DNA from: Terriglobia bacterium
GTDB lineage: Bacteria; Acidobacteriota; Terriglobia; Acidiferrales; UBA7541
Reading direction: 5' to 3'
Assembly: GCA_020073585.1 (NCBI GenBank)
Contig: JAIQEV010000003.1
Span: 62,001-126,000 of the forward strand
Length of the DNA: 64,000 nucleotides
Shown here: piece by piece, positions 31,081 through 48,883 of the stretch
How positions within the stretch are numbered: position 1 is the first letter of the stretch
How the letters are laid out: every line of letters begins with the position of its first letter
Notes under the pieces: generated by a model
The model's database searches: none
What the model saw: only the letters and a program-made list of their open reading frames with translations
What the model was told of the DNA's origin: nothing
Position numbers and translations under genes: made by a program

Positions 31081-31862
31081 GGAGCGGGAACCGCCGTCTT
31101 GCGTGCGCCAGCGGGAGGAAGGACGCGGGCGGCGCGGGGCTGCGGCAGAAAGGAGCGCAGGGGGCAAGCGGCGCAGCGGGGATTGGTCTTGCGGCACCAG
31201 TCCTTGGCAGTACGCACGAGCAGGGCGTGGTATTCGTTGTAGAGCGGCACGCGGCGCGGGAGGTGGCGCTCGAAGTGCGCGCGGATCTGCTCGTAGGGGT
31301 CGCGGGGCAGCGCCTGGCCGTGGCGCTCGAGGATGCGCCGCGTATAGGCGTCCACGACGAAAACGGGATGCGCGCCGGCATAGAGCAGGATGGAGTCGGC
31401 GGTCTCCGGTCCGATGCCGTGGACGCCGAGCAGGAGTTCGCGAAGTTCCGCGGTGGGCGTGCGAAACATGCGCGCCAGCGAGCCGCCGTACTCCTTGCGC
31501 AGAAAACGCACGAAGGCTTTCAGCTTCAGCGCTTTCTGGCGGAAATAACCGGAGGGGCGGATGCAGCGGGCCAGCTTCGCCGTGGAGACGCGCTGGAGCG
31601 CGGCCGGGTGCAGCAGTTTTTCGCGGCGCAGATTGACGATCGCGCGCTCGACGTTGGTCCACGAGGTGTTCTGCGTCAGGATGGCGCCCACGATGACTTC
31701 AAAAGGCGTGCGCCCCGGCCACCAGTGCTGCGGACCGAGCGCGGCGAAAAGCGCATCGTAGTAGGAAAGCAGGGGGTGGTGGAAAAGGGAAGGACGCGCC
31801 GGGGTATGGACAATTTTGGTCAAGCGGGTGTCGAAATCCGGCAGTGACACAGAGTGGGACAT
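31077..31862 (-). CDS. Endonuclease III-like HhH-GPD DNA glycosylase
   Basis: This is a 261-residue base-excision repair-type protein. The helix-hairpin-helix LLLGVHGIGPETADSILLYA is followed by the catalytic Asp in FVVDAYTRRIL. The Lys used by bifunctional endonuclease III is replaced by Glu (GPETA), the form seen in the family of endonuclease III-domain proteins presumed to be monofunctional glycosylases. The iron-sulfur loop is incomplete: Cys223, Cys230 and Cys233 (C-x6-C-x2-C) are present, but the fourth Cys is missing (CPLRSFLPQ). It is the first gene of a coupled unit with the NtrY-like kinase. Confidence 0.85.
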   Translation of the reverse strand: MSHSVSLPDFDTRLTKIVHTPARPSLFHHPLLSYYDALFAALGPQHWWPGRTPFEVIVGAILTQNTSWTNVERAIVNLRREKLLHPAALQRVSTAKLARCIRPSGYFRQKALKLKAFVRFLRKEYGGSLARMFRTPTAELRELLLGVHGIGPETADSILLYAGAHPVFVVDAYTRRILERHGQALPRDPYEQIRAHFERHLPRRVPLYNEYHALLVRTAKDWCRKTNPRCAACPLRSFLPQPRAARVLPPAGARKTAVPAP

Positions 31863-32042
31863 CTCTCCGCACGATAACTGTCAGTGCGAGGCAAGTCAAG
31901 AATGACACTTTCCCGAGCGGACAGGGTGCCTGCTCTTCCGGACAGGTGTTAGCCCTTACAGAACGAGGGCCGAATTTGTCCCTTTGACCCCGTTCCCCCT
32001 CTGCTAAGGTTAAATTTGGGTGCAGAACCCGGGGAGTGCTGG

Positions 32043-33764
32043 ATGTCCGTCCGGCTCGGCGAAATACTGATTAAAGAAAGCCTGATCACCCAGGAACAGC
32101 TGCAGAAAGCCCTGGAGCATCAGCGCACGAACGGTGGCAAGCTCGGCAGCTGTCTGGCCAAGCTGGGCTTCATCACCGACGACGACATCACGGGTGTGTT
32201 GTCCCGGCAATACGGCGTTCCCTCGATCAACCTGAAGTTTTATGAGATCGATCCGGCGGTCATCAAGCTGATCCCGCAGGATACCGCGACGCGCTACCAG
32301 GTGATCCCGCTCTCCCGCGTGGGTTCCGTTCTGACCATCGCGATGACCGACCCCACCAACGTCTTCGCCATGGACGATATCAAGTTCATGACCGGGTTCA
32401 ACGTGGAGCCGGTGGTGGCCTCGGAATCGGCCATCGCGGAGGCCATTACCCGCTTCTATGGGGCGGCCAGTGCGCAGCAGGAAGATCTTAGCAAGATGAT
32501 GAGCGAGCTGGTCGACGAGGAGGAGCAGGACGTCGAGCTGGCCGCGGAAGAAGCGGAGATGGACGCGTCGGCGCTGGAGCGCGTCGCCGAGGAAGCTCCC
32601 ATCATCAAGCTGGTCAACATGATTCTGACCAACGCGGTGAAGATGGGCGCCAGCGATATTCACGTCGAGCCGTACGAGATGGAGATGCGCGTGCGCTACC
32701 GCGTTGACGGCATTCTGCAGACGGTGATGACGCCACCGATGCGGGTGAAGGACGCCATCACCAGCCGCATGAAGATCATGGCCAAGCTGGACATCGCGGA
32801 AAAGCGCCTGCCGCAGGACGGCCGCATCATGATCAAGTACAAGGCAGACGGCAAGAAAAAGGAACTGGACTTCCGCGTTTCCACGGTGCCCACGCTGTAC
32901 GGCGAAAAAATCGTTCTGCGGTTGCTGGACAAAGAGAACCTGCGCCTGGACATGACCAAGCTGGGTTTCGAGCCGGAATCGCTGGCCAAATTCGAGCGCA
33001 ACATTCTGCGGCCTTACGGCATGGTGCTGGTTACCGGTCCGACGGGCTCGGGCAAGACGAACACCCTGTATTCCTCGGTCGCCAAGCTCAATACCGTGGA
33101 AACCAACATTATGACCGCGGAAGACCCGGTCGAGTTCCAATTGCAGGGCGTCAACCAGGTGCAGATGAAGGAGCAGATCGGTCTGAACTTTGCCGCCGCG
33201 CTGCGCGCCTTCCTGCGGCAGGACCCGAACATCATCCTGGTGGGCGAGATTCGCGACTTCGAGACGGCGGAAATCGCGGTCAAGGCCGCTCTGACGGGCC
33301 ACCTGGTGCTCTCCACGCTGCACACCAACGACGCGCCCTCGACCATCAGCCGCATGATGAACATGGGCATCGAGCCGTTCCTGGTGGCCACTTCGGTGAA
33401 CCTGATCTGCGCGCAACGCCTGGTCCGGCGCATCTGCGCGAACTGCAAGGAAGTGCTGGATATTCCGGTGCAGGCGCTGATCGACGCCGGGTATTCGCCG
33501 GAAGAGGCCAAGACCACCAAGGTCTATCACGGCAAGGGCTGTTCGACCTGCAATAAGGGCGGGTACAAGGGACGCGCGGGCCTCTACGAGGTCATGGAGA
33601 TCACCGACGAGCTGAAGGAATTAATTCTCGTGGGCGCTTCGGCACTGGAGTTGAAGAAGAAGGCGATCGAGACGGGAATGATCACCTTGCGGCGCAGCGG
33701 CCTGATCAAGGCCGCCGCCGGCGTCACGACATTGGAAGAAGTGCTGCGCGAAACGGTGCTCTAG
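32043..33764 (+). CDS. pilB: Type IV pilus extension ATPase PilB
   Basis: The 573-residue hexameric motor drives pilin polymerisation. The N-terminus has two 24-residue MshEN-type motifs (Arg4-Gln27 starting RLGEIL, and Lys33-Gln56 starting KLGSCL) separated by exactly five residues, the arrangement that binds cyclic di-GMP in MshE. Then come T2SSE_N, the catalytic domain with Walker A VTGPTGSGKTNTLYS, the Asp box (TAEDPVEF), Walker B ILVGEIRDFETAEIA, the His box HLVLSTLHTND, and the zinc-binding tetracysteine motif (CANC, CSTC). The start ATG 32043 gives MSVRLGE; GGGGAG is about 8 bases before. It opens the pilBTCSR run. Confidence 0.97.
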   Translation: MSVRLGEILIKESLITQEQLQKALEHQRTNGGKLGSCLAKLGFITDDDITGVLSRQYGVPSINLKFYEIDPAVIKLIPQDTATRYQVIPLSRVGSVLTIAMTDPTNVFAMDDIKFMTGFNVEPVVASESAIAEAITRFYGAASAQQEDLSKMMSELVDEEEQDVELAAEEAEMDASALERVAEEAPIIKLVNMILTNAVKMGASDIHVEPYEMEMRVRYRVDGILQTVMTPPMRVKDAITSRMKIMAKLDIAEKRLPQDGRIMIKYKADGKKKELDFRVSTVPTLYGEKIVLRLLDKENLRLDMTKLGFEPESLAKFERNILRPYGMVLVTGPTGSGKTNTLYSSVAKLNTVETNIMTAEDPVEFQLQGVNQVQMKEQIGLNFAAALRAFLRQDPNIILVGEIRDFETAEIAVKAALTGHLVLSTLHTNDAPSTISRMMNMGIEPFLVATSVNLICAQRLVRRICANCKEVLDIPVQALIDAGYSPEEAKTTKVYHGKGCSTCNKGGYKGRAGLYEVMEITDELKELILVGASALELKKKAIETGMITLRRSGLIKAAAGVTTLEEVLRETVL

Positions 33765-33782
33765 AACGGGGGCAAGACCGGT

Positions 33783-34901
33783 ATGGCTGGAATCACGCTG
33801 AGCGAATTGCTGAAGAAGATGATCGAGATGGGCGGGAGCGACCTGCACATCACCACCAACAGCGCGCCGCGCATCCGCGTGCACGGGCATCTGAAGCCGC
33901 TGGACATGCCGCCGCTGACCGCCGCGGATACCAAGTCGCTGGCCTACAGCGTGCTCACCGACGCGCAGAAGCACCGTTTCGAGGAGAACCTGGAGCTCGA
34001 CTTTTCCTTCGGCTTGAAGAATATCGCGCGATTCCGCGGCAACATCTTCAATCAGCGCGGCGCGGTCGCCGCGGTCTTCCGGACCATTCCCTGGGAGATC
34101 AAGAACTTCGAGGCGCTGGGACTGCCGCCGATCATCAAGACCATGTGCGATAAGCCGCGCGGGCTGGTTCTGGTGACTGGGCCGACGGGTTCGGGGAAAT
34201 CCACCACGCTGGCCGCGATGCTCGACAAGATCAACAGCGAGCGCGAAGAGCACATGATCACGGTCGAGGACCCCATCGAGTTCCTGCACAACCACAAGAA
34301 GTGCCTGGTGAACCAGCGTGAAGTCCACTCGGACACGCATTCCTTCGCCAATTCGCTGCGCGCCGCGCTGCGTGAAGATCCCGACGTGGTGCTCATCGGC
34401 GAAATGCGCGATCTGGAAACCATCGAGTCGGCGCTGCGCATCGCGGAAACGGGCCATTTAACCTTTGCGACCCTGCACACGAATTCGGCGGCTTCGACCA
34501 TCAACCGCATCATTGACGTTTTCCCGTCCCACCAGCAGCCGCAGATTCGCGCGCAGCTTTCCATGGTGCTGGAAGGGATTCTCTGTCAAGCCCTGCTGCC
34601 GCGCATGGATGGGCGGGGCCGCTTGATGGTGATGGAAATCCTGGTGCCGACTCCGGCCATCCGCAACCTGATCCGCGAGGACAAGATCCATCAGATCTAT
34701 TCCTCCATGCAGACGGGCACCGGCGTATCGGGCATGCAGACCTTCAACCAGAGCCTGGCGAATGCCTTTTTCCAGAAACAGATTTCCCTGGAAACAGCCC
34801 TCTCACGCTCGTCGAACCAGGACGAACTGCAGGACATGATCAACCGTGGCGTCGCAACGAGTCCGGCCGGCGGCATGAAGGCTCCCACGGGGCGGCGGTA
34901 A
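33783..34901 (+). CDS. pilT: Type IV pilus retraction ATPase PilT
   Basis: This 372-residue motor depolymerises pili. The N-terminal PAS-like part includes MGGSDLHITTNSAPRIRVHG. Walker A is VTGPTGSGKSTTLAA, the Asp box ITVEDPIEF, Walker B VLIGEMRDLETIE and the His box HLTFATLHTNSA. The PilT-specific C-terminal motif AIRNLIRE is intact (TPAIRNLIREDKIHQIYS), which separates it from PilB and from PilU-like proteins. It lies 18 bp after pilB. Twitching motility is therefore expected. Confidence 0.97.
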   Translation: MAGITLSELLKKMIEMGGSDLHITTNSAPRIRVHGHLKPLDMPPLTAADTKSLAYSVLTDAQKHRFEENLELDFSFGLKNIARFRGNIFNQRGAVAAVFRTIPWEIKNFEALGLPPIIKTMCDKPRGLVLVTGPTGSGKSTTLAAMLDKINSEREEHMITVEDPIEFLHNHKKCLVNQREVHSDTHSFANSLRAALREDPDVVLIGEMRDLETIESALRIAETGHLTFATLHTNSAASTINRIIDVFPSHQQPQIRAQLSMVLEGILCQALLPRMDGRGRLMVMEILVPTPAIRNLIREDKIHQIYSSMQTGTGVSGMQTFNQSLANAFFQKQISLETALSRSSNQDELQDMINRGVATSPAGGMKAPTGRR

Positions 34902-34963
34902 ACCGGTTTTCGCCCGGTGCAGGCCGGGCGGGCCGAGAGCAGTGACTGAGGAGGGGTACGAAC

Positions 34964-36172
34964 ATGCCCGTTTTTACCTATCGAGGCACGAATCGCGCGG
35001 GCGCCACCGTGAGCGGTGAAATGGCCGCGCCGAACAAGAACGAACTCAGCATGATGCTGCGGCGCCAGCAGATCACGCCCACCAAGATGTCGGAGAAGGG
35101 CAAGGAGTTCAACCTTCCGACGTTTGGCGGCGGCGTGACAGCCAAGGATCTGGCGATTTTCACGCGCCAGTTTTCGGTAATGATCGACGCCGGACTTCCG
35201 CTGGTGCAGTGTCTGGAAATTCTCGCCAGCCAGCAGGAGAACCCGACGTTTCAGAAGGTCCTGGTCGGCACGCGCGGCGCCGTCGAGGGCGGCTCGACGC
35301 TTTCCGCGGCCATGCGCGGGTATCCCAAGGTGTTCGACCCGCTCTATGTGAACATGGTGGAAGCCGGGGAAACGGGCGGTATTCTGGACACCATTCTGCA
35401 GCGCCTGGCCACGTACATCGAAAAGAACGTGAAACTGCAGCGCGCGGTGAAATCGGCCATGGTCTACCCGATCGGTGTTCTCTCGGTGGCCGGCGGCGTC
35501 ATCGTCTTGCTGTTGTGGAAAGTAGTGCCGATTTTCGCAACGTTGTTCCTGGGCCTGGGTGTCGATCTGCCACTGCCGACCAAGATCGTGATCGCGCTGA
35601 GCAACTTCATCGGCAGCATTTTCGGGTTCATGATCCTGGTGACGGCAGTCGGAGCCTTCTTCGGTGTCAAGGCCTGGTACGGGACGCCGCAGGGGCGCTA
35701 TTTCCTGGATGCTTTGCTGCTCAAGCTTCCGCTCATGGGGGTCCTGCTGCGCAAGATCGGCGTGGCGCGCTTTACGCGCACGTTGGGAACGTTGATCTCC
35801 AGCGGCGTGCCCATCCTGGAGGGATTGGACATCACGGCGCGGACGGCGGGCAACGCGGTCATCGAGAAGGCGCTGCTGAGCGTGCGCAAGTCGCTGGAAG
35901 AAGGCAAGACGCTCACCGAGCCGCTGAAAGAATCGAACGTTTTCCCGGGGATGGTCACGCAGATGATCGGGGTCGGCGAACAGACGGGTGCGATGGACAC
36001 CATGCTGCAGAAGATCGCCGACTTCTATGAAGAAGAAGTGGACGCGGCGGTAAAGGATCTATTGACGGCGCTGGAACCCATCATGATCGTGGTTTTGGGC
36101 GGCGTCGTCGGCGGCGTGGTCATTTCGATGTATCTGCCGCTCTTCTCGCTGATCGGCAAGTTGAGCAAGTAG
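34964..36172 (+). CDS. pilC: Type IV pilus inner-membrane platform protein PilC
   Basis: This is a 402-residue GspF/PilC-family protein with two repeats of the GspF domain. The first is FTRQFSVMIDAGLPLVQCLEIL, the second FTRTLGTLISSGVPILEGLDI. Each is followed by VNMVEAGETGG- or IGVGEQTGA-type blocks, and three membrane helices follow (GVLSVAGGVIVLLLWKVVPIF, IFGFMILVTAVGAFFGV, ALEPIMIVVLGGVVGGVVISMYLPLF). AGGAGGGG before the ATG is a strong ribosome site. It transmits PilB/PilT motion to the pilins. A second, diverged GspF gene sits 8.4 kb downstream. Confidence 0.96.
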   Translation: MPVFTYRGTNRAGATVSGEMAAPNKNELSMMLRRQQITPTKMSEKGKEFNLPTFGGGVTAKDLAIFTRQFSVMIDAGLPLVQCLEILASQQENPTFQKVLVGTRGAVEGGSTLSAAMRGYPKVFDPLYVNMVEAGETGGILDTILQRLATYIEKNVKLQRAVKSAMVYPIGVLSVAGGVIVLLLWKVVPIFATLFLGLGVDLPLPTKIVIALSNFIGSIFGFMILVTAVGAFFGVKAWYGTPQGRYFLDALLLKLPLMGVLLRKIGVARFTRTLGTLISSGVPILEGLDITARTAGNAVIEKALLSVRKSLEEGKTLTEPLKESNVFPGMVTQMIGVGEQTGAMDTMLQKIADFYEEEVDAAVKDLLTALEPIMIVVLGGVVGGVVISMYLPLFSLIGKLSK

Positions 36173-36311: not shown

Positions 36312-37928
36312 ATGGAGCATACGCAAGCAACGCGGGACTGGCTGCATTGGCTGACACGCGTCCGGCTGATGATGATCGTGCTCATCCTGGGCGTGGCCGT
36401 GGTCTGGCCGCAGTATGCGCCGCCCTCGGTTTTCTCCCGCTATCTCCTCCCGCTCATCATGATCTTCTGGATTACCCTGGGCATCCTGTACGCCATCCTG
36501 GTGCGCTGGATTCCGCAGGCCCGCTGGCACGCGCCGTTGCAGGTGGGCGGCGATATCTTGCTCATTACCGCGGTGGTCTACGTCACCGGGGTCCAGGAAA
36601 GCTATTTTATCTCCCTCTACTTGCTGGTCATTATTGTGGCCAGCATTCTTTTCAGCCGGCGCATGGCCTTCGTCACCGCCGGGCTGTGCCTGGTGCTCCT
36701 GGCGGCGCTTTCGGTGGTTGCCTATGCGGAAAAGGTTCCCCGGACATATGCCGTGGTACCCGCCGCGGCCGGACTGCGCCTGTGGTTCCTCAGCCATTTC
36801 CTGGCGTTCTTCGCGGTGGCCTATCTTTCCGGATTGCTCGCGCAGTCACTCTATTCCAAGGGCCAGGAGCTTGAGGAAAAGCGCGAAGAGCTTCTCGACC
36901 TGCGGAACTTCACCGAAGACATCATCGATTCGATGCGCGGGGGCCTGATCACCACCGACCTGGAAGGCCGCATCCTGCTCCTGAACCGCACGGGTGAGGA
37001 GATTCTCGGGTACCGCTTCGAGGATCTGCGCGGGGCGAGCCTGGCCGAGAAGTTCCCCGGGTTCTGGCTGCCGGGAAAGACGGATGGGCAAGGCGACATG
37101 GTGGCGCGGCGGGAGATCGATTTTCTGACGGCGGACCAAGAGGAACGCTTCCTGGGGATATCCGTGTCGCCGTTTCGGTCGCGCGATCCGCGGCAAAGCG
37201 GCTTTGTTTTCAATTTTCAGGACCTGACGGAATTGCGGCGCCTGGAACAGGAAGTGGCCACGAAGGAACGCATGGCGGCGCTGGGACGGCTGTCGGCTGC
37301 CATCGCCCACGAAATCCGGCAGCCCCTTACGGCCATGGCTGGGGCCGTAAAGGAACTGGCGCGGCTGGTGCCTCTGGAGGAGGATGAGAAGCACCTGGTG
37401 AATATCGTCAGCCGCGAATCGGAGAGGCTGAACCAGATCATCACCGACTTTCTCAGCTACGCGCATGAGAAGACCTACGAATTCCAGGAAGCGGACGTCA
37501 GCGCGCTGCTCGATGAAGTGCTGACCCTGATCGAAAAGAAACCGGAGTATCAGGCCAAGTATCGGATCGTTCGCGTCTACACCGGGAAGATGCTGCGTGC
37601 CCGGGTGGACGTGAACCGCATGAAACAGGTGTTCTGGAACCTGTGCGACAACGCCTTGCGGGCCATGCCCGGGGGCGGCACGCTCACCGTGCAACTGGAG
37701 CCGCAATTGTCCTGGCTGCGCATTGCCTTTCGCGACACCGGCGTCGGCCTGGATGCCAAGCGCCGAGAAAAAATATTTGAGCCCCTGCAATCGGGGTTCG
37801 AGGGCGGTACCGGGCTCGGGCTTTCCATTGTCTATCAGATCGTGCAGGCGCACAGCGGAAAGATCAGCGTGATTTCGGAAAAGAACCAGGGCGCAGAGTT
37901 TGTCGTGGAATTGCCCCGGGTGGCATAG
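36312..37928 (+). CDS. pilS: Sensor histidine kinase PilS
   Basis: This 538-residue membrane kinase is paired with pilR directly downstream. About six hydrophobic helices fill residues 15-185, the layout by which PilS senses pilin in the inner membrane. A PAS domain follows ([21 protein letters not shown]). HisKA has the phospho-acceptor His333 in [14 protein letters not shown], and HATPase_c has [21 protein letters not shown] and [12 protein letters not shown]. The gene lies 139 bp after pilC. By analogy with Pseudomonas and Myxococcus it controls pilin transcription through PilR. Confidence 0.93.
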
Positions 37929-37972: not shown

Positions 37973-39349
37973 ATGGCACTCATTCTCGTGGTGGATGACG
38001 AACGCTCAATCTGTGAACTGTTGGAGATTACCTTTCGCAAGGAAGGCCACAAGGTTGAGGTGGCCCATTCCGTGGAAGAGGCGCAGCGCAAGCTGGCAGC
38101 CAAGATTTTCGACATCGTGATTTCGGATATTCGCATGCCCGGCAGCACGGGTGTGGACCTGCTGAAGTATGTCAAGGAGGTCTCTCCGGACTGCTTTTTC
38201 CTGCTGATTACCGGCGTGCCCACGGTGGAAACGGCCATTGCGGCCGTCAATTCCGGCGCGGACCGCTACGTCATCAAGGATCACGAACTGGTGGACCAGT
38301 TGAGGCGCGCGGTGCGCGCCGCTTCTGAAAACCTGCGCTTGCAGAAGGAGGCCGGCTATCTGCGCCGGGAAGTGCGCCGGCTGACGGGCCTGGACAACAT
38401 CATCGGGCAGAGCCCGAGTATGCGCGCCATCTTCGAGTTGATCCAGACCGTCGCCCCGCAGAGCAGCCGCGTGCTGATCACGGGGGAGAGCGGGACGGGA
38501 AAGGAGCTGGTGGCCCGCGCCATCCACGAGAACAGCGCCCGGGCCGCGGCCCCGTTTATCACCATCAACTGCGGCGCGTTTCCCGAGACCCTGCTGGAAT
38601 CCGAACTTTTCGGATATATGAAGGGCGCCTTTACGGGAGCCAATGAAAACCGCCGCGGGCTTTTCCAGGCGGCGCACGGCGGCACGCTCTTCATGGACGA
38701 GATCGGCAACATGAGCCTGACCATGCAGGTAAAGCTCTACCGCGTGCTGCAGGAAGGGAAGCTGCGTCCGCTGGGCAGCACGGAAGAGACGGACGTGGAT
38801 GTGCGCGTGATTACCGCCACCAACAAGGATTTCGAAAAGGAGATCGCCGAAGGGCGCTTCCGGGAAGACCTCTATTACCGGCTCAGCGTCATCCCCATCC
38901 ATCTCCCGCCGTTGCGCGAACGGCGCGACGACATTCCGCTGCTGGCGCGGCATTTCCTGGAAAAGTTCACGAAGGTGATGAACAAGCCGATCCGGGGGAT
39001 TTCTCCCGAAGCCATGCGCCGCCTGGAAGCCTACGAATGGCCGGGAAATGTGCGCGAGCTCGAGAATACCATGGAGCGCGCGGTGGCTCTCGAAATCGGA
39101 AGCGAGGTTTCCGTCGGCGTTCTGCCGGGCCGCATTGGCGGTTACGAAACGCCGGCGAGTGCGCCGGGCAACGGGTCTTTCCATTTGTCCGTCGACGGGC
39201 TGGATTTTGAAAAGCAGATGGCGGAAATGGAAAGACGTTACCTGCAGGCCGCCTTGGAAGCCGCCGGTGGTGTGCGCACCCGCGCCGCCGAGTTGCTGAA
39301 GATCAGTTACCGTTCCTTCCGGCACTACGCAAAAAAACACAACGTGTAG
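37973..39349 (+). CDS. pilR: Sigma-54-dependent pilin regulator PilR
   Basis: This 458-residue NtrC-class activator has a receiver domain (VDDERS, phospho-acceptor Asp52 in IVISDIRMPG, and Lys in VIKDHEL). The AAA+ domain has Walker A TGESGTGKELVAR, a perfect GAFTGA sigma-54 loop and the GTLFMDEIGNM Walker B. The C-terminus is a Fis-type helix-turn-helix (RTRAAELLKISYRSFRHYAKK). It is the obvious candidate activator for the two sigma-54 promoters found before the pilin genes 1.7 and 2.5 kb downstream, and for the inverted repeats 143 bp above each -24 element. Confidence 0.95.
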   Translation: MALILVVDDERSICELLEITFRKEGHKVEVAHSVEEAQRKLAAKIFDIVISDIRMPGSTGVDLLKYVKEVSPDCFFLLITGVPTVETAIAAVNSGADRYVIKDHELVDQLRRAVRAASENLRLQKEAGYLRREVRRLTGLDNIIGQSPSMRAIFELIQTVAPQSSRVLITGESGTGKELVARAIHENSARAAAPFITINCGAFPETLLESELFGYMKGAFTGANENRRGLFQAAHGGTLFMDEIGNMSLTMQVKLYRVLQEGKLRPLGSTEETDVDVRVITATNKDFEKEIAEGRFREDLYYRLSVIPIHLPPLRERRDDIPLLARHFLEKFTKVMNKPIRGISPEAMRRLEAYEWPGNVRELENTMERAVALEIGSEVSVGVLPGRIGGYETPASAPGNGSFHLSVDGLDFEKQMAEMERRYLQAALEAAGGVRTRAAELLKISYRSFRHYAKKHNV

Positions 39350-39388: not shown

Positions 39389-40735
39389 TCAGCGGCGCGG
39401 AGCGAGTTCTGCGAGCGGATCCACCTTGCCCGCCGGCAGCCGCCGTTTGCCGCGCAGCGTCCGCAGCGGATAGGCCACGGCCAGGACCGCCAGCAGTCCC
39501 ATGGCAGGGTCAATCGGATGCCGGTAGCGCGGGGACGTTTGCGTGATGTAGTACACCAGCGGAAAGAGAAGCAGCAGGCAGAGCAGCGGGATGCTTTGCA
39601 ACGGCTGCGCGCGCTGCACCAGGAACAAGCCCAGCAAAGCCAGCAAGGAGAAGAGATAGCCGCCCGCCAGGCTGATCTTCAGCGACAGCGGAATCCCTTT
39701 CCAGATATCGGCCAGGGGCTCCCACGTTCCCGTCCAGTTGTACATGAAACGCCGGAAGACGAAACGTCCGAAATCCGCAGGGTGTGTTTTGATGAATTGC
39801 ATGGCCAAGCTCTGTTTTTCTTGCATATAGGCGATCTCACCCATGCGGACAAACTTTTCGCGTTCCTGCGCATTCTCGGTGGGATGCAGCCACCAGGACC
39901 AGGTATCGGGAACCTCGGGATTGTTCCCCAGCCACAGTACCAAGCCGAACGGGGACCGGAACAGCAGCGCCTTGTGGAAGACAACCTGGTTGCGGATCAG
40001 CCAGGGAGAAACACCCGCTGCAAAGACCACCAGTGCCAGGACCCCAAGCCGCAGCCAGGAGGCGCCGCGTTGCCGCGCCCGATAGGTCGCATATCCGAGC
40101 AAGCCCGGAAATACCGAGAGAACGGCGGCGTTGGTCAGCGCACCGAAAGCCCAGAGCCCGCCATAACCGGTCCAGCGGCTTGGGCGGTCCGTATCGTCCA
40201 GCGCGTAGGTGGCCCACAGCAGAAGGGTCAGGAGCAGTGCCGACAGGCTGGTATCCCAGGTCCAAACGGCGCAAAAGAAGAGCGAAGTGCTATTCAGAGC
40301 CCAGCACCAGGCCGCAGCGGCGCCAACGCCGGGGCTGAACAGCCGCCGGCCAAGCGCATACAGGGGAAAGCAGGCTAGTGCCGCCAGAAGGCAATTCAAG
40401 ATTTTGATGACGATTTCGGTGCTCCGCGCATAAATTCCGAAAACCTTGAAAATGCCCGCCAGGATGTAGGGATAAACCGGCGTGATCCAGGCGGTCGGTC
40501 CGGATTCCACATTCAATGGCGAGCTGAAGCCGCGCCCCTCGGCGAGAGAGCGTGCGATCTGGCCGGTTTCGTAACCGGGGACGATGTGCGTGACGATGCG
40601 TCCAGGCCGGATCCACTGCACGTACGCGAGATAGGCGAGGCGTATCGCAAAGGCCAGGACAAAGATTACAGCAGGCGACGTTAGGTATCGGCGCAGACCC
40701 TGGCCGGGATTTGGTGCAAGCGCTGGGCTATCCAT
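39389..40735 (-). CDS. GT-C (ArnT/PMT-like) membrane glycosyltransferase
   Basis: This 448-residue polytopic protein has about ten hydrophobic segments (AVIFVLAFAIRLAYLAYVQW, LLALLGLFLVQ and others). The first periplasmic loop carries GYETGQIARSLAEGRGFSSPL with an acidic residue, in the position of the catalytic Asp/Glu of GT39/GT83 lipid-linked sugar transferases. SPWLIRNQVVF and the C-terminal PRYRHPIDPAMGLLAVLA also fit ArnT-like proteins. It lies between pilR and the pilin genes on the opposite strand. Modification of pilin is a reasonable guess but not shown. The start is ATG 40735; TTG 40771 is possible. Confidence 0.78.
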   Translation of the reverse strand: MDSPALAPNPGQGLRRYLTSPAVIFVLAFAIRLAYLAYVQWIRPGRIVTHIVPGYETGQIARSLAEGRGFSSPLNVESGPTAWITPVYPYILAGIFKVFGIYARSTEIVIKILNCLLAALACFPLYALGRRLFSPGVGAAAAWCWALNSTSLFFCAVWTWDTSLSALLLTLLLWATYALDDTDRPSRWTGYGGLWAFGALTNAAVLSVFPGLLGYATYRARQRGASWLRLGVLALVVFAAGVSPWLIRNQVVFHKALLFRSPFGLVLWLGNNPEVPDTWSWWLHPTENAQEREKFVRMGEIAYMQEKQSLAMQFIKTHPADFGRFVFRRFMYNWTGTWEPLADIWKGIPLSLKISLAGGYLFSLLALLGLFLVQRAQPLQSIPLLCLLLLFPLVYYITQTSPRYRHPIDPAMGLLAVLAVAYPLRTLRGKRRLPAGKVDPLAELAPRR

Positions 40736-40935
40736 ACGAGGGAGTTTATCGGCGGGCACCCGCAGCTTCAATTATTACGTGCGGAGGCGTTTCCAAGTCC
40801 TGAAAAGGAATTCTTGTGTGCGACAAACCGCTCCACATCCGCGGAGGAGGTTCTGAGCGGCATAGGAGAAAGCCATGCGGCCGATTTATGCTGTCCTTCA
40901 AGTAGGAACTGCGAACGGTTGAAGCGACATTAAGT

Positions 40936-40955
40936 GGTGACGGAAAGTGTCATTT
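40936..40955 (+). promoter_or_regulatory. Inverted repeat, putative PilR enhancer site of pilin gene 1
   Basis: GGTGACGGAAAGTGTCATTT has TGAC and GTCA arms 7 bp apart. Its first base is 143 bp upstream of the -24 GG at 41079. An equivalent element lies at exactly the same distance above the second pilin promoter. It contains GTGTC, the core I recall for PilR sites in Pseudomonas. Confidence 0.7.
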
Positions 40956-41077
40956 CCAGGATGGAATTGGATCGGTCGTACTGGCGATGGTGGAATTTGT
41001 TTCTACGGCAAATTGTAAGCTCTGCATAATGAGTTACTTACCATACTACTGCAGTTTGCAAAATAGAGCAGTGCCTT

Positions 41078-41093
41078 TGGCAGAAGACATGCA
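41078..41093 (+). promoter_or_regulatory. Sigma-54 (-24/-12) promoter of pilin gene 1
   Basis: TGGCAGAAGACATGCA matches the consensus TGGCACN5TTGCW, with the invariant GG (41079-41080) and GC (41091-41092) 10 bp apart and mismatches only at C6 and T12. The predicted start near 41104 leaves 37 bases of leader with AAGGAG. Confidence 0.8.
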
Positions 41094-41140
41094 TCATATG
41101 GGGTCAGTTCGCGGAATGCCAAATTCCAAGGAGATTCTGA

Positions 41141-41620
41141 ATGCGTAAGAACCAAAAGGGTTTTTCGTTGATTGAGCTTCTGATCGTGGTGGCCATCATT
41201 CTGATTATCGCCGCGATCGCCATTCCCAACTTGCTGCGCTCGAAGATGGCCGCCAACGAATCTTCGGCTGTCGGGTCGCTGCGTTCGATCAACACCGCTT
41301 CCGTCACCTATTCCTCCACCTACGGGATCGGTTTTCCGGTGAACCTGAGCAGTCTGCAAGCGGTGGCGGCTGGCACCAATGCCAGCTCGACTGCGGCGGA
41401 CTTGATTGACTCCGTGCTTTCCAGCGGCACGAAGAGCGGCTACAACTTCACGCTTACCGGTCTGCTAAGCGGCACCATCGTGCAGACGTACACGGCCGTA
41501 GCGAACCCGGTCACCCCGGGCCAGACAGGTAACCGGTACTTCTTCACGGATCAGAGTTTCGTGATCCGTCAGAGCACGACCGCACAGGCAACGGTTACCG
41601 ATACCCCGATCGGAAATTAA
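41141..41620 (+). CDS. pilA: Type IV pilin (major pilin candidate 1)
   Basis: This is a 159-residue prepilin. The leader MRKNQKG is cut before Phe8; the mature N-terminus FSLIELLIVVAIILIIAAIA has Glu at mature position 5 and Pro22-type IPN, the class IVa hallmark. The globular part has SINTASVTYSSTYG, SGYNFTLTG, TPGQTGNRYFFTDQSFVIRQ. It is rich in Ser/Thr and has no cysteine pair, so there is no classical disulfide D-region. It is close in sequence to the second pilin downstream. Its own promoter (sigma-54) and terminator make it monocistronic. Confidence 0.95.
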   Translation: MRKNQKGFSLIELLIVVAIILIIAAIAIPNLLRSKMAANESSAVGSLRSINTASVTYSSTYGIGFPVNLSSLQAVAAGTNASSTAADLIDSVLSSGTKSGYNFTLTGLLSGTIVQTYTAVANPVTPGQTGNRYFFTDQSFVIRQSTTAQATVTDTPIGN

Positions 41621-41644
41621 GATCAGTCCAGAAGCAGTACCCGG

Positions 41645-41678
41645 CACGGAGGGAGCATTGCTCCCTCCGTGTTTTTTT
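41645..41678 (+). terminator. Intrinsic terminator of pilin gene 1
   Basis: An 11-bp perfect stem CACGGAGGGAG/CTCCCTCCGTG (41645-41655 with 41661-41671) with loop CATTG is followed by TTTTTTTG. It separates the two pilin transcription units. Confidence 0.93.
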
Positions 41679-41734
41679 GTTTACGGATAGATTCCACTTG
41701 GATATCAAAAATCAGATAATGTCAGGCAAAAAAT

Positions 41735-41754
41735 GGTGACAGATACTGTCACTA
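41735..41754 (+). promoter_or_regulatory. Inverted repeat, putative PilR enhancer site of pilin gene 2
   Basis: GGTGACAGATACTGTCACTA is a 7-bp perfect inverted repeat (GTGACAG/CTGTCAC) around ATA. It aligns without gaps to the element at 40936 and lies the same 143 bp above its -24 GG (41878). It contains CTGTC on both strands. Confidence 0.75.
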
Positions 41755-41876
41755 ACGGAAATAAAGAGAGGGTAGTTGTCTTGTAGGGTGCGATTTAGCT
41801 TCGTGGAGTAAGTCTAACCCCTGTGGTATGTTGGCGTTGAAGGATATTTAAATATCTGTTAAAAGAGATTCTGTTT

Positions 41877-41892
41877 TGGCGCAAAAAGTGCG
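41877..41892 (+). promoter_or_regulatory. Sigma-54 (-24/-12) promoter of pilin gene 2
   Basis: TGGCGCAAAAAGTGCG has the invariant GG (41878-41879) and GC (41890-41891) at the required 10-bp interval and TGGC at the -24 side. The predicted start near 41903 leaves about 38 bases of leader, like pilin gene 1. Confidence 0.75.
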
Positions 41893-41940
41893 TATATAAC
41901 TTTAGAACAATTGAGAACTTTAGGATTCAGGGGATCGCGA

Positions 41941-42408
41941 ATGCGCAAGAAACAACAGGGCTTTTCGCTGATCGAGCTTCTGATCGTCGTGGCCATCATT
42001 CTGATTATCGCGGCGATTGCAGTTCCCAACCTGCTGCGTTCCAGGATAGCGGCGAATGAGGCTTCGGCTGTGGCTTCGCTGCGCACCATCAACACTGCGT
42101 GTGTCACCTATTCGTCTACCTACGGGATTGGCTACCCGACGTCATTGAGCAGTCTGGCGGAGTCGGCTACCGCCAGCTCAACCGCTGCGGATTTGCTCGA
42201 CAGCATGCTCTCCACTGGCACCAAGAGCGGCTACAACTTCACGCTCACCGGGGGTGCTGCGCCAGGAGGCATAGTCCAGACGTATACGGCGACGGCGGCC
42301 CCGGCAAGCCCGGGCCAGACCGGCAACCGGTACTTCTTCAGCGATCAGTCCGGCGTGATCCGGCAAAAGATTGGTGGCCCGGCGACGGTCACGGACACTC
42401 CGATTTGA
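41941..42408 (+). CDS. pilA: Type IV pilin (paralogue 2)
   Basis: This 155-residue prepilin with leader MRKKQQG has a mature N-terminus FSLIELLIVVAIILIIAAIA identical to that of pilin 1 over its first 20 residues. The globular part follows pilin 1 closely (STYGIGYP, SSTAADLLDS, SGTKSGYNFTLTG-type, SPGQTGNRYFFSDQSGVIRQ). Differences cluster in the LSSL-to-SSTAAD loop, in the stretch before IVQTYT, and at the C-terminus. The true start is ATG 41941; an upstream in-frame TTG (41911) would add 10 residues before the leader. No intrinsic terminator is visible before lolA. Confidence 0.94.
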   Translation: MRKKQQGFSLIELLIVVAIILIIAAIAVPNLLRSRIAANEASAVASLRTINTACVTYSSTYGIGYPTSLSSLAESATASSTAADLLDSMLSTGTKSGYNFTLTGGAAPGGIVQTYTATAAPASPGQTGNRYFFSDQSGVIRQKIGGPATVTDTPI

Positions 42409-43374: not shown

Positions 43375-44589
43375 ATGGGGGAATTTGTTTGTCGCGTGGC
43401 CGATGGCAACGGGCGTGTCTTCGCGCTCGTGGAGGCGGCGCAGTCGCTCGCAGACGCCCGGCAGAAACTGCTGGACCGCGGGCTATACGTGTATTCCGTG
43501 CGTGCCCGCAGCGGAATCTTCGAGGGGTTGACGCGTGGAAGCCGGGAGCGCACCATTGGCGGCTCCGAGTTCCTGATCCTCAACCAGCAGTTCAATACGC
43601 TGATCAAGGCGGGCCTCCCGATCCTGCGCGCTCTGGATCTGCTGGCGGAACGCGCGGCCTCCCCGAAGCTGCGCCCGATCGTGGGGCAGGTGCGCGACCG
43701 GGTACGCGAAGGGAAGTCGCTTTCCGAAGCGGTGGCCGAAACCGGTGCATTCTCGAAGGTCTATGCCACGGCGATCGTGGCCGGTGAGAAGAGCGGCGAT
43801 CTTCCCGGAGTGCTGGAGCAGTTCATCATTTACCAGCGCGTCAGCACCAACGTGCGCAAGCGGATTCTGGCCACCCTGGTGTATCCGGCACTTCTGGTTA
43901 CGGTCGCGATTCTGATCGTGAGTTACCTGGTCACCTATGTCATTCCGGAGTTCGCCAAGCTCTACCGTGATCTGAACGTGGAATTGCCGGCGAGCACGCG
44001 GCTGCTTCTCTCCCTGACCGTGGAATACCGGGTGGCTTTTCTCTCGTCAGTCGGAGCGCTGCTCGCCGCGGCCGCCGGCGTTTTCTTCTGGGCGCGCACG
44101 GAGCAGGGAGGAGAGGCCTTGGACCGGCTGAAATTCCGCCTGCCCGTGGTAGGGGACACGCTGCTCAAATTCCAGGTGGCGCAGTTCTCGCGCACCCTGG
44201 GCACGCTGCTCGGCGGCGGAACCCCGCTGGTGCCCGCGCTGCAGACCGCAGCGGACTCGATTCAGAGCAAGCTGGTTAGCGGCGCCGTGCTGCAGGCTGC
44301 GCGGAAAGTGCGCGAAGGGCAGTCGCTGCACGACGCTCTGGCCGAGCGGCGTGTGATGCCGGAGCTGGCGCTGGATATGATCGAGGTCGGGGAATCGAGC
44401 GGAGCTTTGGTGGCCATGCTCAGCAGCGTGGCAGAATTTTACGAGGAAGAAGTGACGGTTCGGCTGGCGGCGCTGATTGCGGTGATCGAGCCGGGCATTT
44501 TGATTTTCATGGCTATCTTCGTGCTCTATATCCTGGTGGCTTTGTATCTTCCGATGTTCTCGCTTTCCATGGCCGGACCGGCAAGGTAA
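43375..44589 (+). CDS. GspF/PilC-family inner-membrane platform protein (second copy)
   Basis: This 404-residue GspF-type protein has two domain repeats (LNQQFNTLIKAGLPILRALDLL and FSRTLGTLLGGGTPLVPALQTA), each followed by a glycine-containing VAGEKSGD or IEVGESSGA block. Three hydrophobic helices are present (LVTVAILIVSYLVTYVIPEF, FLSSVGALLAAAAGVFFW, ILIFMAIFVLYILVALYLPMF). It begins MGEFVCRVADGNGRVF. It is clearly diverged from the pilC product and sits directly before a GspE-type ATPase gene (6 bp). The two probably form the motor pair of a second pilus or type II secretion machine. Confidence 0.92.
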   Translation: MGEFVCRVADGNGRVFALVEAAQSLADARQKLLDRGLYVYSVRARSGIFEGLTRGSRERTIGGSEFLILNQQFNTLIKAGLPILRALDLLAERAASPKLRPIVGQVRDRVREGKSLSEAVAETGAFSKVYATAIVAGEKSGDLPGVLEQFIIYQRVSTNVRKRILATLVYPALLVTVAILIVSYLVTYVIPEFAKLYRDLNVELPASTRLLLSLTVEYRVAFLSSVGALLAAAAGVFFWARTEQGGEALDRLKFRLPVVGDTLLKFQVAQFSRTLGTLLGGGTPLVPALQTAADSIQSKLVSGAVLQAARKVREGQSLHDALAERRVMPELALDMIEVGESSGALVAMLSSVAEFYEEEVTVRLAALIAVIEPGILIFMAIFVLYILVALYLPMFSLSMAGPAR

Positions 44590-44595
44590 GGAGTT

Positions 44596-46245
44596 ATGGC
44601 GACAGCGGATCCCAATCTGACTCCCGGCGGCAACCCCGGCGCTCCTTCCGCCGGAGACGAACGGCACCAGAAGGAGTACGCGCGGCGGCTCGCGGAGCGC
44701 TATCGCTGCGCCCTGGTGGACCTGCGCGAGCAGCGGCCCGATCCGGAACTGTTCCGCAACATTCCCGCGGACCTGATGTTCCGTTACAACTTCGTGCCCC
44801 TGGAAGTGGTGAACAACGCCCTGGTGATCGCCGTGGCGGACCCCAGCCAGGTGCTGCTCAGCGATGAGCTGCCGCTGCTCCTGGGCCGCAAACTGAGCAT
44901 CAAGGTGGCCACCGCGGCGCAGATCAGCGACCTGCTCAAGCGCACCGAACAGTCCCAGCGGGTTCTCGAGCAGGCCACCGAAGCCTTCACCTTGCAGGTC
45001 TCCAAGGACGAGGAGGAGGGCGAAGAGACCATCTCCGCGGACCGCGTGACCCGCGACACCACGGCCAGTCCGGTGGTGCGTCTGGTGGAAACGGTGATCT
45101 TCACGGCCCTCGAGCGGCGCGCCAGCGACATTCACATCGAGGCCCGCGACGCCGAAGTGGTGGTCAAATACCGCATCGACGGCGTGCTGCAGCACGCCAT
45201 GCCCCCCATCTCCAAGGACTGGCACTCCACGATTATCTCGCGCATCAAGGTCCTCAGCGACCTGGACATCGCCGAGCGCCGCGTCCCGCAGGACGGGCGC
45301 TTCCGGGTGCGCTACAAGGGGCGGTTCATCGATCTGCGCGTTTCCATCATGCCCGCCAGCCACGGCGAAGACGCCGTGCTGCGCGTGCTCGACAAGGAGA
45401 CGCTGTCGGAGAAGTTTCAGACGCTGAGCCTCGACGTCGTGGGCTTCTCGGAAGAAGAGCTGCGCCGCTTCCGCCGCTATATCCGCGAGCCTTACGGCAT
45501 GGTCCTGGTTACCGGGCCCACGGGCTCGGGCAAGACCACCACGCTGTATGCCGCGATCAACGAGATCAAGAGCGACGAGGATAAGATCGTCACCATCGAG
45601 GATCCCGTCGAATACCAGGTCCGCGGCATCACCCAGATCCCGGTCAACGAAAAGAAGGGGCTGACCTTCGCGCGTGGCCTGCGCTCCATCCTGCGCCACG
45701 ACCCCGACAAAATCATGGTCGGGGAAATCCGCGACCAGGAGACCGCGCAAATCGCCATTCAATCCGCGCTCACCGGCCATCTGGTGTTCACCACCGTGCA
45801 CGCCAACAACGTCACCGACGTCATCGGGCGCTTCATCAACATGGGCGTCGAGCCCTACAACTTCGTTTCCGCGCTCAACTGCATCATGGCCCAGCGCCTG
45901 GTGCGCATGATCTGCGAGCACTGCAAGCAGGCCAAGCGCTATTCCGCGGAACAGCTGCGGGAGTCGGGGCTGGATCCCGCGGTGTGGGGGCAGGCGGTCT
46001 TCGTGGAAGGCACGGGATGCCTGGAATGCTCGGGCACGGGCTACCACGGGCGCACGGCCATCTGCGAACTGCTGGATCTGACCGACCGCATCCGGGAGAT
46101 GATCGTGGACCGCCGGCCCACGTCGGAGATCAAGCGCGTGGCCATCGAGGAAGGGATGATTACCCTGCGGGAGAGCGGCCTGGCCAAGATCCGCGCGGGC
46201 GTGACCACGCTGCGGGAAATCAACAAGGTGACCTTCGTTGAGTAG
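44596..46245 (+). CDS. GspE/PilB-type assembly ATPase (second copy)
   Basis: This 549-residue secretion ATPase has a T2SSE_N-like part (FRNIPADLMFRYNFVPLEV, LVIAVADPSQV) but lacks the two 24-residue MshEN motifs of the pilB product. The core has Walker A VTGPTGSGKTTTLYAAI, Asp box VTIEDPVEY, Walker B IMVGEIRDQETAQIA, His box HLVFTTVHANN and a zinc site (CEHC, CLEC). The preference for GTGHLVFTTVHANN and NVTDVIGRF resembles GspE/MshE rather than PilT. It is in a tight run with the GspF gene upstream and the PilM-like gene downstream (8-bp overlap). Confidence 0.93.
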   Translation: MATADPNLTPGGNPGAPSAGDERHQKEYARRLAERYRCALVDLREQRPDPELFRNIPADLMFRYNFVPLEVVNNALVIAVADPSQVLLSDELPLLLGRKLSIKVATAAQISDLLKRTEQSQRVLEQATEAFTLQVSKDEEEGEETISADRVTRDTTASPVVRLVETVIFTALERRASDIHIEARDAEVVVKYRIDGVLQHAMPPISKDWHSTIISRIKVLSDLDIAERRVPQDGRFRVRYKGRFIDLRVSIMPASHGEDAVLRVLDKETLSEKFQTLSLDVVGFSEEELRRFRRYIREPYGMVLVTGPTGSGKTTTLYAAINEIKSDEDKIVTIEDPVEYQVRGITQIPVNEKKGLTFARGLRSILRHDPDKIMVGEIRDQETAQIAIQSALTGHLVFTTVHANNVTDVIGRFINMGVEPYNFVSALNCIMAQRLVRMICEHCKQAKRYSAEQLRESGLDPAVWGQAVFVEGTGCLECSGTGYHGRTAICELLDLTDRIREMIVDRRPTSEIKRVAIEEGMITLRESGLAKIRAGVTTLREINKVTFVE

Positions 46246-47215
46246 CGCCGCGGATTTCCGGAAGGGCATCTTCGCGAGCGGCTTGGTGCGCGGCTTCGTG
46301 CGCTGGCTGGACGCCAGCCCGCACCCGCCGCTGGCCTGCGAGATCATGCCGGGACAGATTGCCGCGGCGCGCTTCACGCGCACAGGTGGCGTGGACGGCT
46401 TCGCGGTCGAGGCCCTCCCCCCGGGAGCCATCGTGCCCTCCGCCGTCGAGCCCAATATCATCAATACCAGCGCGGTGCGCACGGCCATGGGCAGCGTCTT
46501 CAGCCGCCTCGGCGCCCGGGATACGGATGTGGCGCTGCTGCTGCCGGACCCCGTGATCCGCGTTTTTGTCCAGCATTTCGAAGAGTTTCCGCGCAAGCCC
46601 CAGGAAGCGCTCCCCATCCTGCGCTGGAAACTGAAGAAGAGCGTGCCCTTCGAAACCGAGGAGACGCAGATCTCCTACATGCGCCAGCAACCCCGGGAAG
46701 AAGGCGTGGACGTGGTGACGGCGCTGGCGCGCCAGCGCATCGTGCGCGAGTACGAAGCCCTTGCGGAGGCCGCGGGTCTCCATCCCGGCGTGGTGCTGAG
46801 CTCCTCGCTGGCGGCCGTCTCCCTGCTCGAGGACCGTGGGCCGACGCTCCTGGCGCGGGTCTCCGGGACTTCGCTGACCACGGCCATCGTGCGCCAGGGA
46901 ATTCTCTGCGGGTATCGCTGCACCGAGCTTCCCCAGGAATCCAGCATGGTCACCCCGGCCGTGCTGCTGGAAGAGGTCTTTCCCGTGGCCGCCTATTATC
47001 AGGACACCTGGCAGGAAGAGATTCGCTCCGTGCGTGTAGCGGGGCTGGGGCGCCGCCTGAACGAATTTACCGGGCCGTTCGAGGCGGAGTTTCATTGTCC
47101 GGTCCGCGGCCTGCTCAGCGCGGCCGCCGTCGACGGCACTCTCCGCGGCGACGCGCGGTCCCTGGCGGAGCGCGAGCTCGACGGGCTGGCCGGCTGGATG
47201 CTGCATCATGGATAA
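46238..47215 (+). CDS. PilM-like (actin-fold) assembly protein
   Basis: This 325-residue protein starts at TTG 46238, 8 bp inside the end of the ATPase gene. The N-terminal half has PilM-like features: PPLACEIMPGQIAAARF, VALLLPDPVIRVFVQHFEEFP, and the conserved basic/hydrophobic segment LPILRWKLKKSVPFETEETQISY. The latter half (AEAAGLHPGVVLSSSLAAVSLL, VSGTSLTTAIVRQGILCGYRC) fits an actin-like ATPase fold of the PilM/GspL cytoplasmic type. No membrane helix is present, as expected for PilM and unlike GspL. It would anchor the PilN/PilO-like proteins that follow to the ATPase. Confidence 0.75.
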   Translation: MSSAADFRKGIFASGLVRGFVRWLDASPHPPLACEIMPGQIAAARFTRTGGVDGFAVEALPPGAIVPSAVEPNIINTSAVRTAMGSVFSRLGARDTDVALLLPDPVIRVFVQHFEEFPRKPQEALPILRWKLKKSVPFETEETQISYMRQQPREEGVDVVTALARQRIVREYEALAEAAGLHPGVVLSSSLAAVSLLEDRGPTLLARVSGTSLTTAIVRQGILCGYRCTELPQESSMVTPAVLLEEVFPVAAYYQDTWQEEIRSVRVAGLGRRLNEFTGPFEAEFHCPVRGLLSAAAVDGTLRGDARSLAERELDGLAGWMLHHG

Positions 47216-47224
47216 GGGAAGAGC

Positions 47225-47791
47225 ATGAAGGTCCGGCTCAATCTGGCGACCAAGCCGTTGGAAACGCACCGCCGGTTTCTGGCGGGCGCGGGCTTTCTCG
47301 GCGCCGTGGCCGGCATCGCGTTTCTGTTGCTGGGCGGCCACGTCTATCAGGAGCGCCGCGCGGAACAGGCGCTGCGTGCAAAGACTGCGGAGATCGAGCG
47401 GCAGATCGAAGTGTTGCGCCGGGAGCGCCAGGAACTGGAGGAGTTTTTTAACCGCCCGGAAAATGCCCAGTTGCATGACCGCGCCGTGTATCTGAATACC
47501 CTGCTGGATGCGCGCAGCTTCAACTGGACCCAGATGTTCATGGATCTCGAGCAGCTTCTGCCGGGCGGCGTGCGCGTGGTGAGCATCGCCCCGAAGCTGG
47601 AGAACAACCGCGTCGAGGTGCGGCTGGTGGTGGGAGCCGCGAGCGACGAAGCCAAGCTCAAATTCCTGCGGGCCCTGGAGGGCTCGAAGTTGTTTTCGAA
47701 TGTGCAGTTGCTCTCCGAGCACGCCCCGCCGGGAAGCGAAGGCGGGGATCAGTCCGTGCTGGAGCTGACGGCTACCTATACGAGGATGTAA
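47225..47791 (+). CDS. PilN-like inner-membrane assembly protein
   Basis: This 188-residue bitopic protein starts VRLNLATKPLETHRRF, the equivalent of the INLLP motif by which PilN binds PilM. A single helix (AGAGFLGAVAGIAFLLLGG) and a coiled coil (RAEQALRAKTAEIERQIEVLRRERQELEEFF) follow. The periplasmic ferredoxin-like domain includes SFNWTQMFMDLEQLLPGGVRVVSIAP and VVGAASDEAKLKFLRALE. The next gene starts directly after its stop. By position and fold it is the PilN partner of the PilO-like protein. Confidence 0.82.
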   Translation: MKVRLNLATKPLETHRRFLAGAGFLGAVAGIAFLLLGGHVYQERRAEQALRAKTAEIERQIEVLRRERQELEEFFNRPENAQLHDRAVYLNTLLDARSFNWTQMFMDLEQLLPGGVRVVSIAPKLENNRVEVRLVVGAASDEAKLKFLRALEGSKLFSNVQLLSEHAPPGSEGGDQSVLELTATYTRM

Positions 47792-48346
47792 ATGCGGCGG
47801 GACTTCAAATTTCGCAAAATCATGATCCTCAGCGGCCTGGGACTTCTCCTCGCCGCGGACATCGCCCTGGCCGCGTACAACTGGCGTTCCGGCGCGGGGG
47901 CCCGCACCCCGCAGCAGATGCTGACGCTGGAAAGCCAGCAGCTCAAGCTGCTCAAGGCCGACGTGGAGCGGGCCCGCGGCATCCGCAAGCAGATGCCGGC
48001 TATTCAGCAGGATTGCGAGCGCTTCGAGAAGTCGCTGCCGCCCGCCTCCAGCGGGTACTCTTCGCTGGTCAGCGAACTGGGAGGCGTCGCCAGGAACGCC
48101 GGGGTGAAGGTCGCCAGCCTGAATTTTAAGAGCCAGGAAGTGGCCAAGAAACCGTTTGTGCAGGTGGAGATGGAAGCCGCCATCGAAGGCGATTACAGCA
48201 GCGTGGTGCGCTTTCTCAACGGCCTGCAGAAATCCGACGGCCTGTTCATCGTGAATGCCCTGACGCTGGCCTCTTCGCCGCAGACTGCGGGCGGGGCTTT
48301 GCGCGTGAATTTGCACCTGCAAACGTATTTCCGGACGACGGCATAG
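47792..48346 (+). CDS. PilO-like inner-membrane assembly protein
   Basis: This 184-residue bitopic protein has an N-terminal helix (IMILSGLGLLLAADIALAAY), a short coiled coil (LESQQLKLLKADVERARGIRKQM) and a PilO-type periplasmic ferredoxin-like domain (FEKSLPPASSGYSSLVSELGGVARNAGVKVASLNF, VQVEMEAAIEGDYSSVVRFLNGLQKS). The pattern ofsegments matches PilO: helix, coil, then two beta-alpha units. It sits head-to-tail with the PilN-like gene (stop and start adjoin). Confidence 0.82.
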   Translation: MRRDFKFRKIMILSGLGLLLAADIALAAYNWRSGAGARTPQQMLTLESQQLKLLKADVERARGIRKQMPAIQQDCERFEKSLPPASSGYSSLVSELGGVARNAGVKVASLNFKSQEVAKKPFVQVEMEAAIEGDYSSVVRFLNGLQKSDGLFIVNALTLASSPQTAGGALRVNLHLQTYFRTTA

Positions 48347-48352
48347 GGACGC

Positions 48353-48883
48353 ATGACGCAGAAAAAACAGATCATCCTGCTCCTGGCTCTCGTGGCCATC
48401 GCCGCGGCGGTCTGGTACGCGGGCACGCGGCCCCCCGCCAAGCAGGCCGCCACCGGCGCCTGGAACCTGAATTTTCCGCCGCTTGCGGTGGACAATCCGC
48501 AGTTGCACTGGTGGAAGGCCGAGGCCGCGCGCAAGACCGATTACGCCCGCAGCCGCCGCAATATTTTCAGCGCCATCGCCCCGCCGCCTCCCGCGGAAGA
48601 GAAGAAGATCGAGATGGCCAAGCAGCCGGCGCTGCCCGTAATCCCCCCGCGGCCGACGGTCGCTCCGCTGCCCGTCAAGTTCTTCGGCTACGCCACGCTT
48701 CCCGCCAGCGGTACCAAGCGCGCCTTTTTCACCGACGGCGATGACGTGTTCATTGTCGGCGAGGGGGAGGCGCTATTCGGGCGCTTCCGCGTCGTGCGCA
48801 TCGGCAACAACAGCCTGGAGTATGAAGAGATCGCTTCCGGCCTGCGCGGCACGCTGGCCCTCGAGGAAGCCCCCCAGGCATGA
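48353..48883 (+). CDS. PilP/GspC-like periplasmic protein
   Basis: This is a 176-residue protein. An N-terminal hydrophobic segment (IILLLALVAIAAAVWYAG) is followed by a disordered Ala/Pro/Lys region (PPPPAEEKKIEMAKQPALPVIPP) and a small beta-rich domain (LPVKFFGYATLPASGTKRAFFTDGDDVFIVGEGEALFGRFRVVRIGNNSLEYEE). The G(D/E)xL-x-G-x-F/Y-x-V-x-x-I pattern matches the PilP/GspC homology-region domain that docks to the secretin. There is no lipobox, so it is membrane-anchored like GspC rather than a lipoprotein like PilP. It overlaps the next gene by 4 bp. Confidence 0.65.
   Translation: MTQKKQIILLLALVAIAAAVWYAGTRPPAKQAATGAWNLNFPPLAVDNPQLHWWKAEAARKTDYARSRRNIFSAIAPPPPAEEKKIEMAKQPALPVIPPRPTVAPLPVKFFGYATLPASGTKRAFFTDGDDVFIVGEGEALFGRFRVVRIGNNSLEYEEIASGLRGTLALEEAPQA

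Follow-up and report, generated by a model that had tools for sequence, protein, structure and literature searches.

Organization of the pilin locus

The window, that is, the whole 64-kb stretch of DNA that was analysed, contains a pil locus in which two pilin genes lie downstream of a gene pair for a PilS-like kinase and a PilR-like activator. The features in and around the pilin genes are as follows:

36312-37928, plus strand: PilS-like membrane histidine kinase (6TM_PilS, PAS, HisKA and HATPase domains)
37973-39349, plus strand: PilR-like sigma-54 activator (receiver, AAA+ domain with GAFTGA, Fis-type HTH)
39389-40771, minus strand: glycosyltransferase gene (PMT_2)
40938-40952: TGACGGAAAGTGTCA, a dyad resembling an enhancer, 140 nt ahead of the pilin 1 -24 element
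41078-41093, plus strand: putative sigma-54 -24/-12 element of pilin 1, TGGCAGAAGACATGCA (top matrix score; offset conserved in relatives)
41128-41133, plus strand: ribosome-binding site AAGGAG of pilin 1, read from the sequence
41141-41620, plus strand: pilin 1 of 159 aa with a methylation motif at the N-terminus (PF07963, TIGR02532)
41643-41673, plus strand: intrinsic terminator of the pilin 1 unit, with a stem of 14 pairs and a T run
41737-41751: TGACAGATACTGTCA, a dyad resembling an enhancer, 140 nt ahead of the pilin 2 -24 element
41877-41892, plus strand: weaker putative sigma-54 -24/-12 element of pilin 2, TGGCGCAAAAAGTGCG (matrix score 9.3)
41941-42408, plus strand: pilin 2 of 155 aa, sharing 78% identity with pilin 1

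The type IV pilin assignment by PF07963 and TIGR02532 agrees with the surroundings, in which the pilB and pilT models were matched and a PilC-like neighbour is present; pilB, pilT and the pilC-like gene are located upstream of PilS-PilR at 32016-36172. After the pilins, at 43375-48883, a second PilC/GspF-like and PilB/GspE-like pair was recognized by eye, followed by PilM/N/O-like genes, and it is possible that the pil locus encodes two machineries for pili or secretion. Pilin 1 is parted from the minus-strand glycosyltransferase gene by the intergenic region 40772-41140. The initial annotation had placed a sigma-54 promoter in this gap and had named a pilin as the sole downstream gene, and the latter was borne out by the strong terminator closing the unit. 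Taken together, the sequence is laid out in two separate modules, each consisting of a dyad, a 125-nt spacer, a -24/-12 element, a short leader and a pilin gene, with the terminator between them. Neither the upstream dyad nor the matching module of pilin 2 was part of the initial annotation.

The candidate sigma-54 elements of the pilins

The 16-mer on the plus strand was found as claimed, with the invariant GG (41079-41080) and GC (41091-41092) exactly 10 bp apart in a TGGCAC-N5-TTGC-like context. Counted from the ATG of pilin 1 (41141), the T of TGG is at -63. TGGCAGAAGACATGCA deviates from the consensus by a G at the sixth position and by an A as the first base of the -12 half (ATGC). When a degenerate consensus with up to two mismatches was applied, the window gave 18 matches, TGGCAGAAGACATGCA among them, where 25 were expected, and the string by itself is therefore not significant. 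With a weighted matrix run over both strands of the 64 kb, TGGCAGAAGACATGCA was the single best site at 12.9 bits, followed by a runner-up of 12.7 distant from the pilin locus, and 20 window sites reached 9.2; the matrix frequencies were approximate ones after the published consensus, so that these absolute scores are rough. The score of TGGCAGAAGACATGCA was attained in 0.4% of shuffled 200-nt upstream regions. The element of pilin 2 has most of its bases departing from the consensus and lies at -64 from its ATG and 140 nt from its own dyad, offsets which match those of the pilin 1 module.

Compared with the nearest relative (G009, PilR 95% identical), the intergenic DNA of pilin 1 was otherwise diverged, and the element (TTTGGCAGAAGAYATGC) formed an island of identity in it; these islands comprised TTTGGCAGAAGA-ATGC as well as the region of the dyad. 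Pilin homologues were also drawn from 40 related genomes, and 77 distinct upstream regions were read. A -24/-12 score of at least 8 was found in 52% of these upstreams versus 7% of shuffles, and a score of at least 12 in 21% versus 0.7%, the 52% and 21% being descriptive figures because related upstreams are not independent. Relative to the start codon, the high-scoring sites lay mostly between about -62 and -88, and a perfect TGGCACG-N4-TTGCA was present in three of the upstreams, at -63, -64 and -77. Thus TGGCAGAAGACATGCA is more than a chance match because of its position and conservation. The sigma-54 switch upstream of pilin 1 is very probably real, and on the comparative evidence the case for assigning the pilin promoters to sigma-54 is strong. 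By convention, a transcript start is predicted near 41104, 12 nt beyond the -12 GC.

A conserved dyad upstream of the -24/-12 elements

A repeat search across both pilin upstreams returned a 21-nt pair, AAGTGGTGACGGAAAGTGTCA and AAATGGTGACAGATACTGTCA, at a spacing of 799 nt. Both dyads have the form TGAC-N7-GTCA and start exactly 140 nt ahead of the T in the TGG of their -24 element (41078 and 41877), and they are the only perfect copies of this pattern in the window. The pilin 2 dyad is contained in a perfect inverted repeat, GTGACAG-ATA-CTGTCAC, at 41736-41752. In both window dyads, the right arm would be compatible with (C/G)TGTC, the older half-site of Pseudomonas. No IHF site was obvious by eye between dyad and promoter.

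In the pilin upstreams of relatives, inverted half-sites occurred 13 times with N7 and 0-2 times at any other spacing from 0 to 20, and the N7 dyads clustered about -200 to -260 from the pilin ATG. The motif derived from 60 sites in 130 distinct upstreams was TGAC(A/G)-n-(A/T)3-n-T-GTCA, and the distance from the dyad to the -24 element in the same set peaked at 140-142 nt, within the roughly 80-200 nt upstream where an activator-binding dyad is expected at a sigma-54 promoter. Many pilins of relatives are without a recognisable dyad. At many of the relatives' sites a second, degenerate dyad was found 23 bp upstream of the main one. Counted from the start of the main dyad, it shows G at -22 and -12 and C at -20 and -10, and its preservation in the window is poor. 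This second dyad suggests paired enhancer sites. The conserved main dyad is probably bound by a protein, most likely the neighbouring PilR.

The combination of dyad and -24/-12 element was then searched for without regard to pilins. The pattern used for the genus consisted of the dyad, 115-145 nt and TGG-N9-TGC, and in 36 genomes 17 of 80 distinct matches were located before pilins, nearly all of them with A/T-rich dyad centres. In 16 of the 17 cases the pilin starts no more than 260 nt downstream; the pilin of the remaining match (L154) was identified from the ORF. When the spacing within the -24/-12 element was lengthened by one base as a control, pilins followed none of the 41 matches examined (Fisher p=5e-4). 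A stricter pilin-blind pattern applied to 297 genomes spread over the phylum gave 44 matches, two of which were the window's own, and 15 of the 42 others precede pilins. The -24/-12 element is conserved before pilins across genus and class, and its layout with the dyad recurs in Acidobacteriota. The looser pattern GTGAC...GTCA plus GG-N10-GC gave 13 matches in the window's own genome, and the 11 outside the locus were judged from the sequence to be chance and were rejected. In four genomes (G231, G223, G300 and G199; matches L366-L369) the dyad and a strong -24/-12 element, TGGCACTGTAATTGC (TGGCATTAGAGTTGC in G300), stand about 90-100 nt before the gene of a TPR-like protein of ~467 aa and not before a pilin. 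This gene may be another target of the switch.

RpoN and the candidate activators

The genome encodes one copy of RpoN (TIGR02395, E 1.8e-121, with the RRTVAKYR box). The PilS-PilR pair which the initial annotation had noted in the locus is indeed encoded there, 1.7-4.8 kb upstream, where the PilS-type kinase with its 6TM_PilS domain adjoins the regulator carrying the sigma-54 AAA+ domain, GAFTGA and the Fis-type HTH. NCBIfam returned no PilR model for this activator, and the best models (AtoC, NtrC) were below cut-off. An orthologue 76-95% identical is present in most genus members, the recognition helix being nearly constant (SYRSFRHYAKKH), and the nearest relatives of the protein mark the host as an acidobacterium, since they come from MAGs that for the most part bear the labels Acidobacteria gp2, Candidatus Acidiferrum and Candidatus Acidiferrales. 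In G006, G008, G072, G315 and G339 the distance from the module to pilR is 33-92 bp. Of 30 genomes sampled from a family of the same class (f11), 6 have a PilR orthologue at E below 1e-118; counted by hand, pilin modules were present in 3 of these 6 versus 0 of the 24 without it (p about 0.005). G242 has a pilin module and no PilR match at E<=1e-118. Because of the conservation of PilR, the adjacency of module and pilR, and their co-occurrence, we infer that PilR is the binder of the dyad.

The genome has about 20 sigma-54 activators. One of them in the window is another response regulator with a GSFTGA loop (27466-28824, minus strand), which adjoins a large membrane histidine kinase (28846-31662, minus strand); judged by eye, the pair looks NtrY/NtrX-like.

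Proposed regulation of the pilins and alternatives

The elements, their geometry, their conservation and their tie to pilins were read from the DNA, together with the presence of rpoN, pilS and pilR. With rpoN in the genome, a PilR that has the sigma-54 interaction domain with GAFTGA, and -24/-12 elements conserved before pilins, a sigma-54 promoter under PilR, as initially proposed, is the best-supported explanation. We consider it highly probable that each pilin has its own PilR-activated sigma-54 promoter with an enhancer at about -165. The individual steps can be drawn by analogy with the known families. RpoN-RNA polymerase would occupy the -24/-12 elements (41078-41093 and 41877-41892) as a silent closed complex. 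PilS, the membrane kinase of the locus, would phosphorylate PilR, and PilR dimers would bind the dyad TGAC-N7-GTCA, which is 140 nt ahead of the -24 element and at about -165 from the predicted start. PilR would then assemble into an AAA+ ring, and DNA looping and use of ATP via the GAFTGA loop would lead to promoter opening. The transcript of pilin 1 would extend from its start near 41104 to the terminator, giving a single-gene pilin mRNA.

Sigma-54-dependent promoters could also be served by another of the roughly 20 activators, while PilR acts at other sites or plays no part. The sheer number of these proteins, two others of which are partly inside the window, speaks for such a possibility, as does the pilin module of G242, where PilR was missing at the threshold used. 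Since the module adjoins pilR in several genomes and is confined to PilR-bearing genomes in family f11, we regard this explanation as unlikely. A palindrome alone cannot separate an activator from a repressor, and the dyad might be the operator of an ordinary repressor or a site of some other DNA-binding protein unrelated to sigma-54 activation. However, a site some 165 nt ahead of the predicted start is far for simple repression, and the distance peak together with the second degenerate dyad is as expected of enhancer sites, which makes an operator very improbable.

It could be argued, finally, that ordinary sigma-70-type promoters drive the pilins and that the -24/-12 match is fortuitous, given that matches to the loose consensus are common by chance. 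No sigma-70-like site was found on the plus strand in 40700-42000, the sole one in this region being on the opposite strand at chance level, and the -24/-12 elements are conserved in both position and sequence. A sigma-70 promoter was accordingly rejected for the pilins, and hardly any credence can be given to it. PilR-activated sigma-54 promoters remain our preferred explanation.

Relation to known systems

A search of the open-access literature found no report of PilSR/RpoN pilin control or of its enhancer motif in Acidobacteriota. This kind of control is known, but it has apparently not been described in Acidobacteriota, where it now comes with an explicit enhancer motif. PilSR/RpoN control of pilins, as in Pseudomonas, Geobacter and Myxococcus, would thereby be extended to a phylum of poorly studied soil bacteria. 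We further lean towards a phylum-wide PilR enhancer code, which differs from the quoted Pseudomonas sites and would control several pilins as well as, in certain lineages, genes of other kinds such as that of the TPR protein. In the proposed code, a TGAC-N7-GTCA dyad whose centre is A/T precedes the -24/-12 element by ~140 nt, and in many cases it is accompanied by a second degenerate dyad 23 bp further upstream. If this is true, the motif predicts PilR targets in these mostly uncultured bacteria, and PilR regulons could therefore be read directly from the genomes of uncultured species.

The appeal of the initial annotation to PilR/RpoN control of pilin as established in Pseudomonas (PMC6058289) and Myxococcus (PMC6211767) was justified, and Geobacter can be added (PMC2725144). 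In Desulfovibrio vulgaris, pilin genes likewise have a conserved upstream site for a response regulator that depends on sigma-54, DVU2114, but the pili are of the Flp/Tad type and the regulator is a different one (PMC3333781). In Myxococcus xanthus, PilR uses a sigma-54 site before pilA (PMC6211767), and the N-terminus of the window pilin resembles the PilA_Myxo model with a score below the model cut-off; there is a single pilA there and two pilins here. The PilS-PilR/pilA system of Pseudomonas aeruginosa, as outlined in PMC6058289, shares the two-component control, the RpoN-dependent pilin and the upstream activator sites. The hallmarks quoted there, in a second-hand description, are TGT-N11-AGA and GTCT elements, whereas the single strong dyad found here is TGAC-N7-GTCA and has a centre rich in A/T. 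In Geobacter sulfurreducens, a PilR-type activator also acts on a sigma-54 pilin promoter, the start of the RpoN promoter of pilA has been mapped by 5'-RACE (as cited in PMC2725144), and pilR is near the pilin. Geobacter belongs to another phylum, however, and the locus described here differs in having two pilins, each with a module of its own, and in the glycosyltransferase gene that separates pilR from them.
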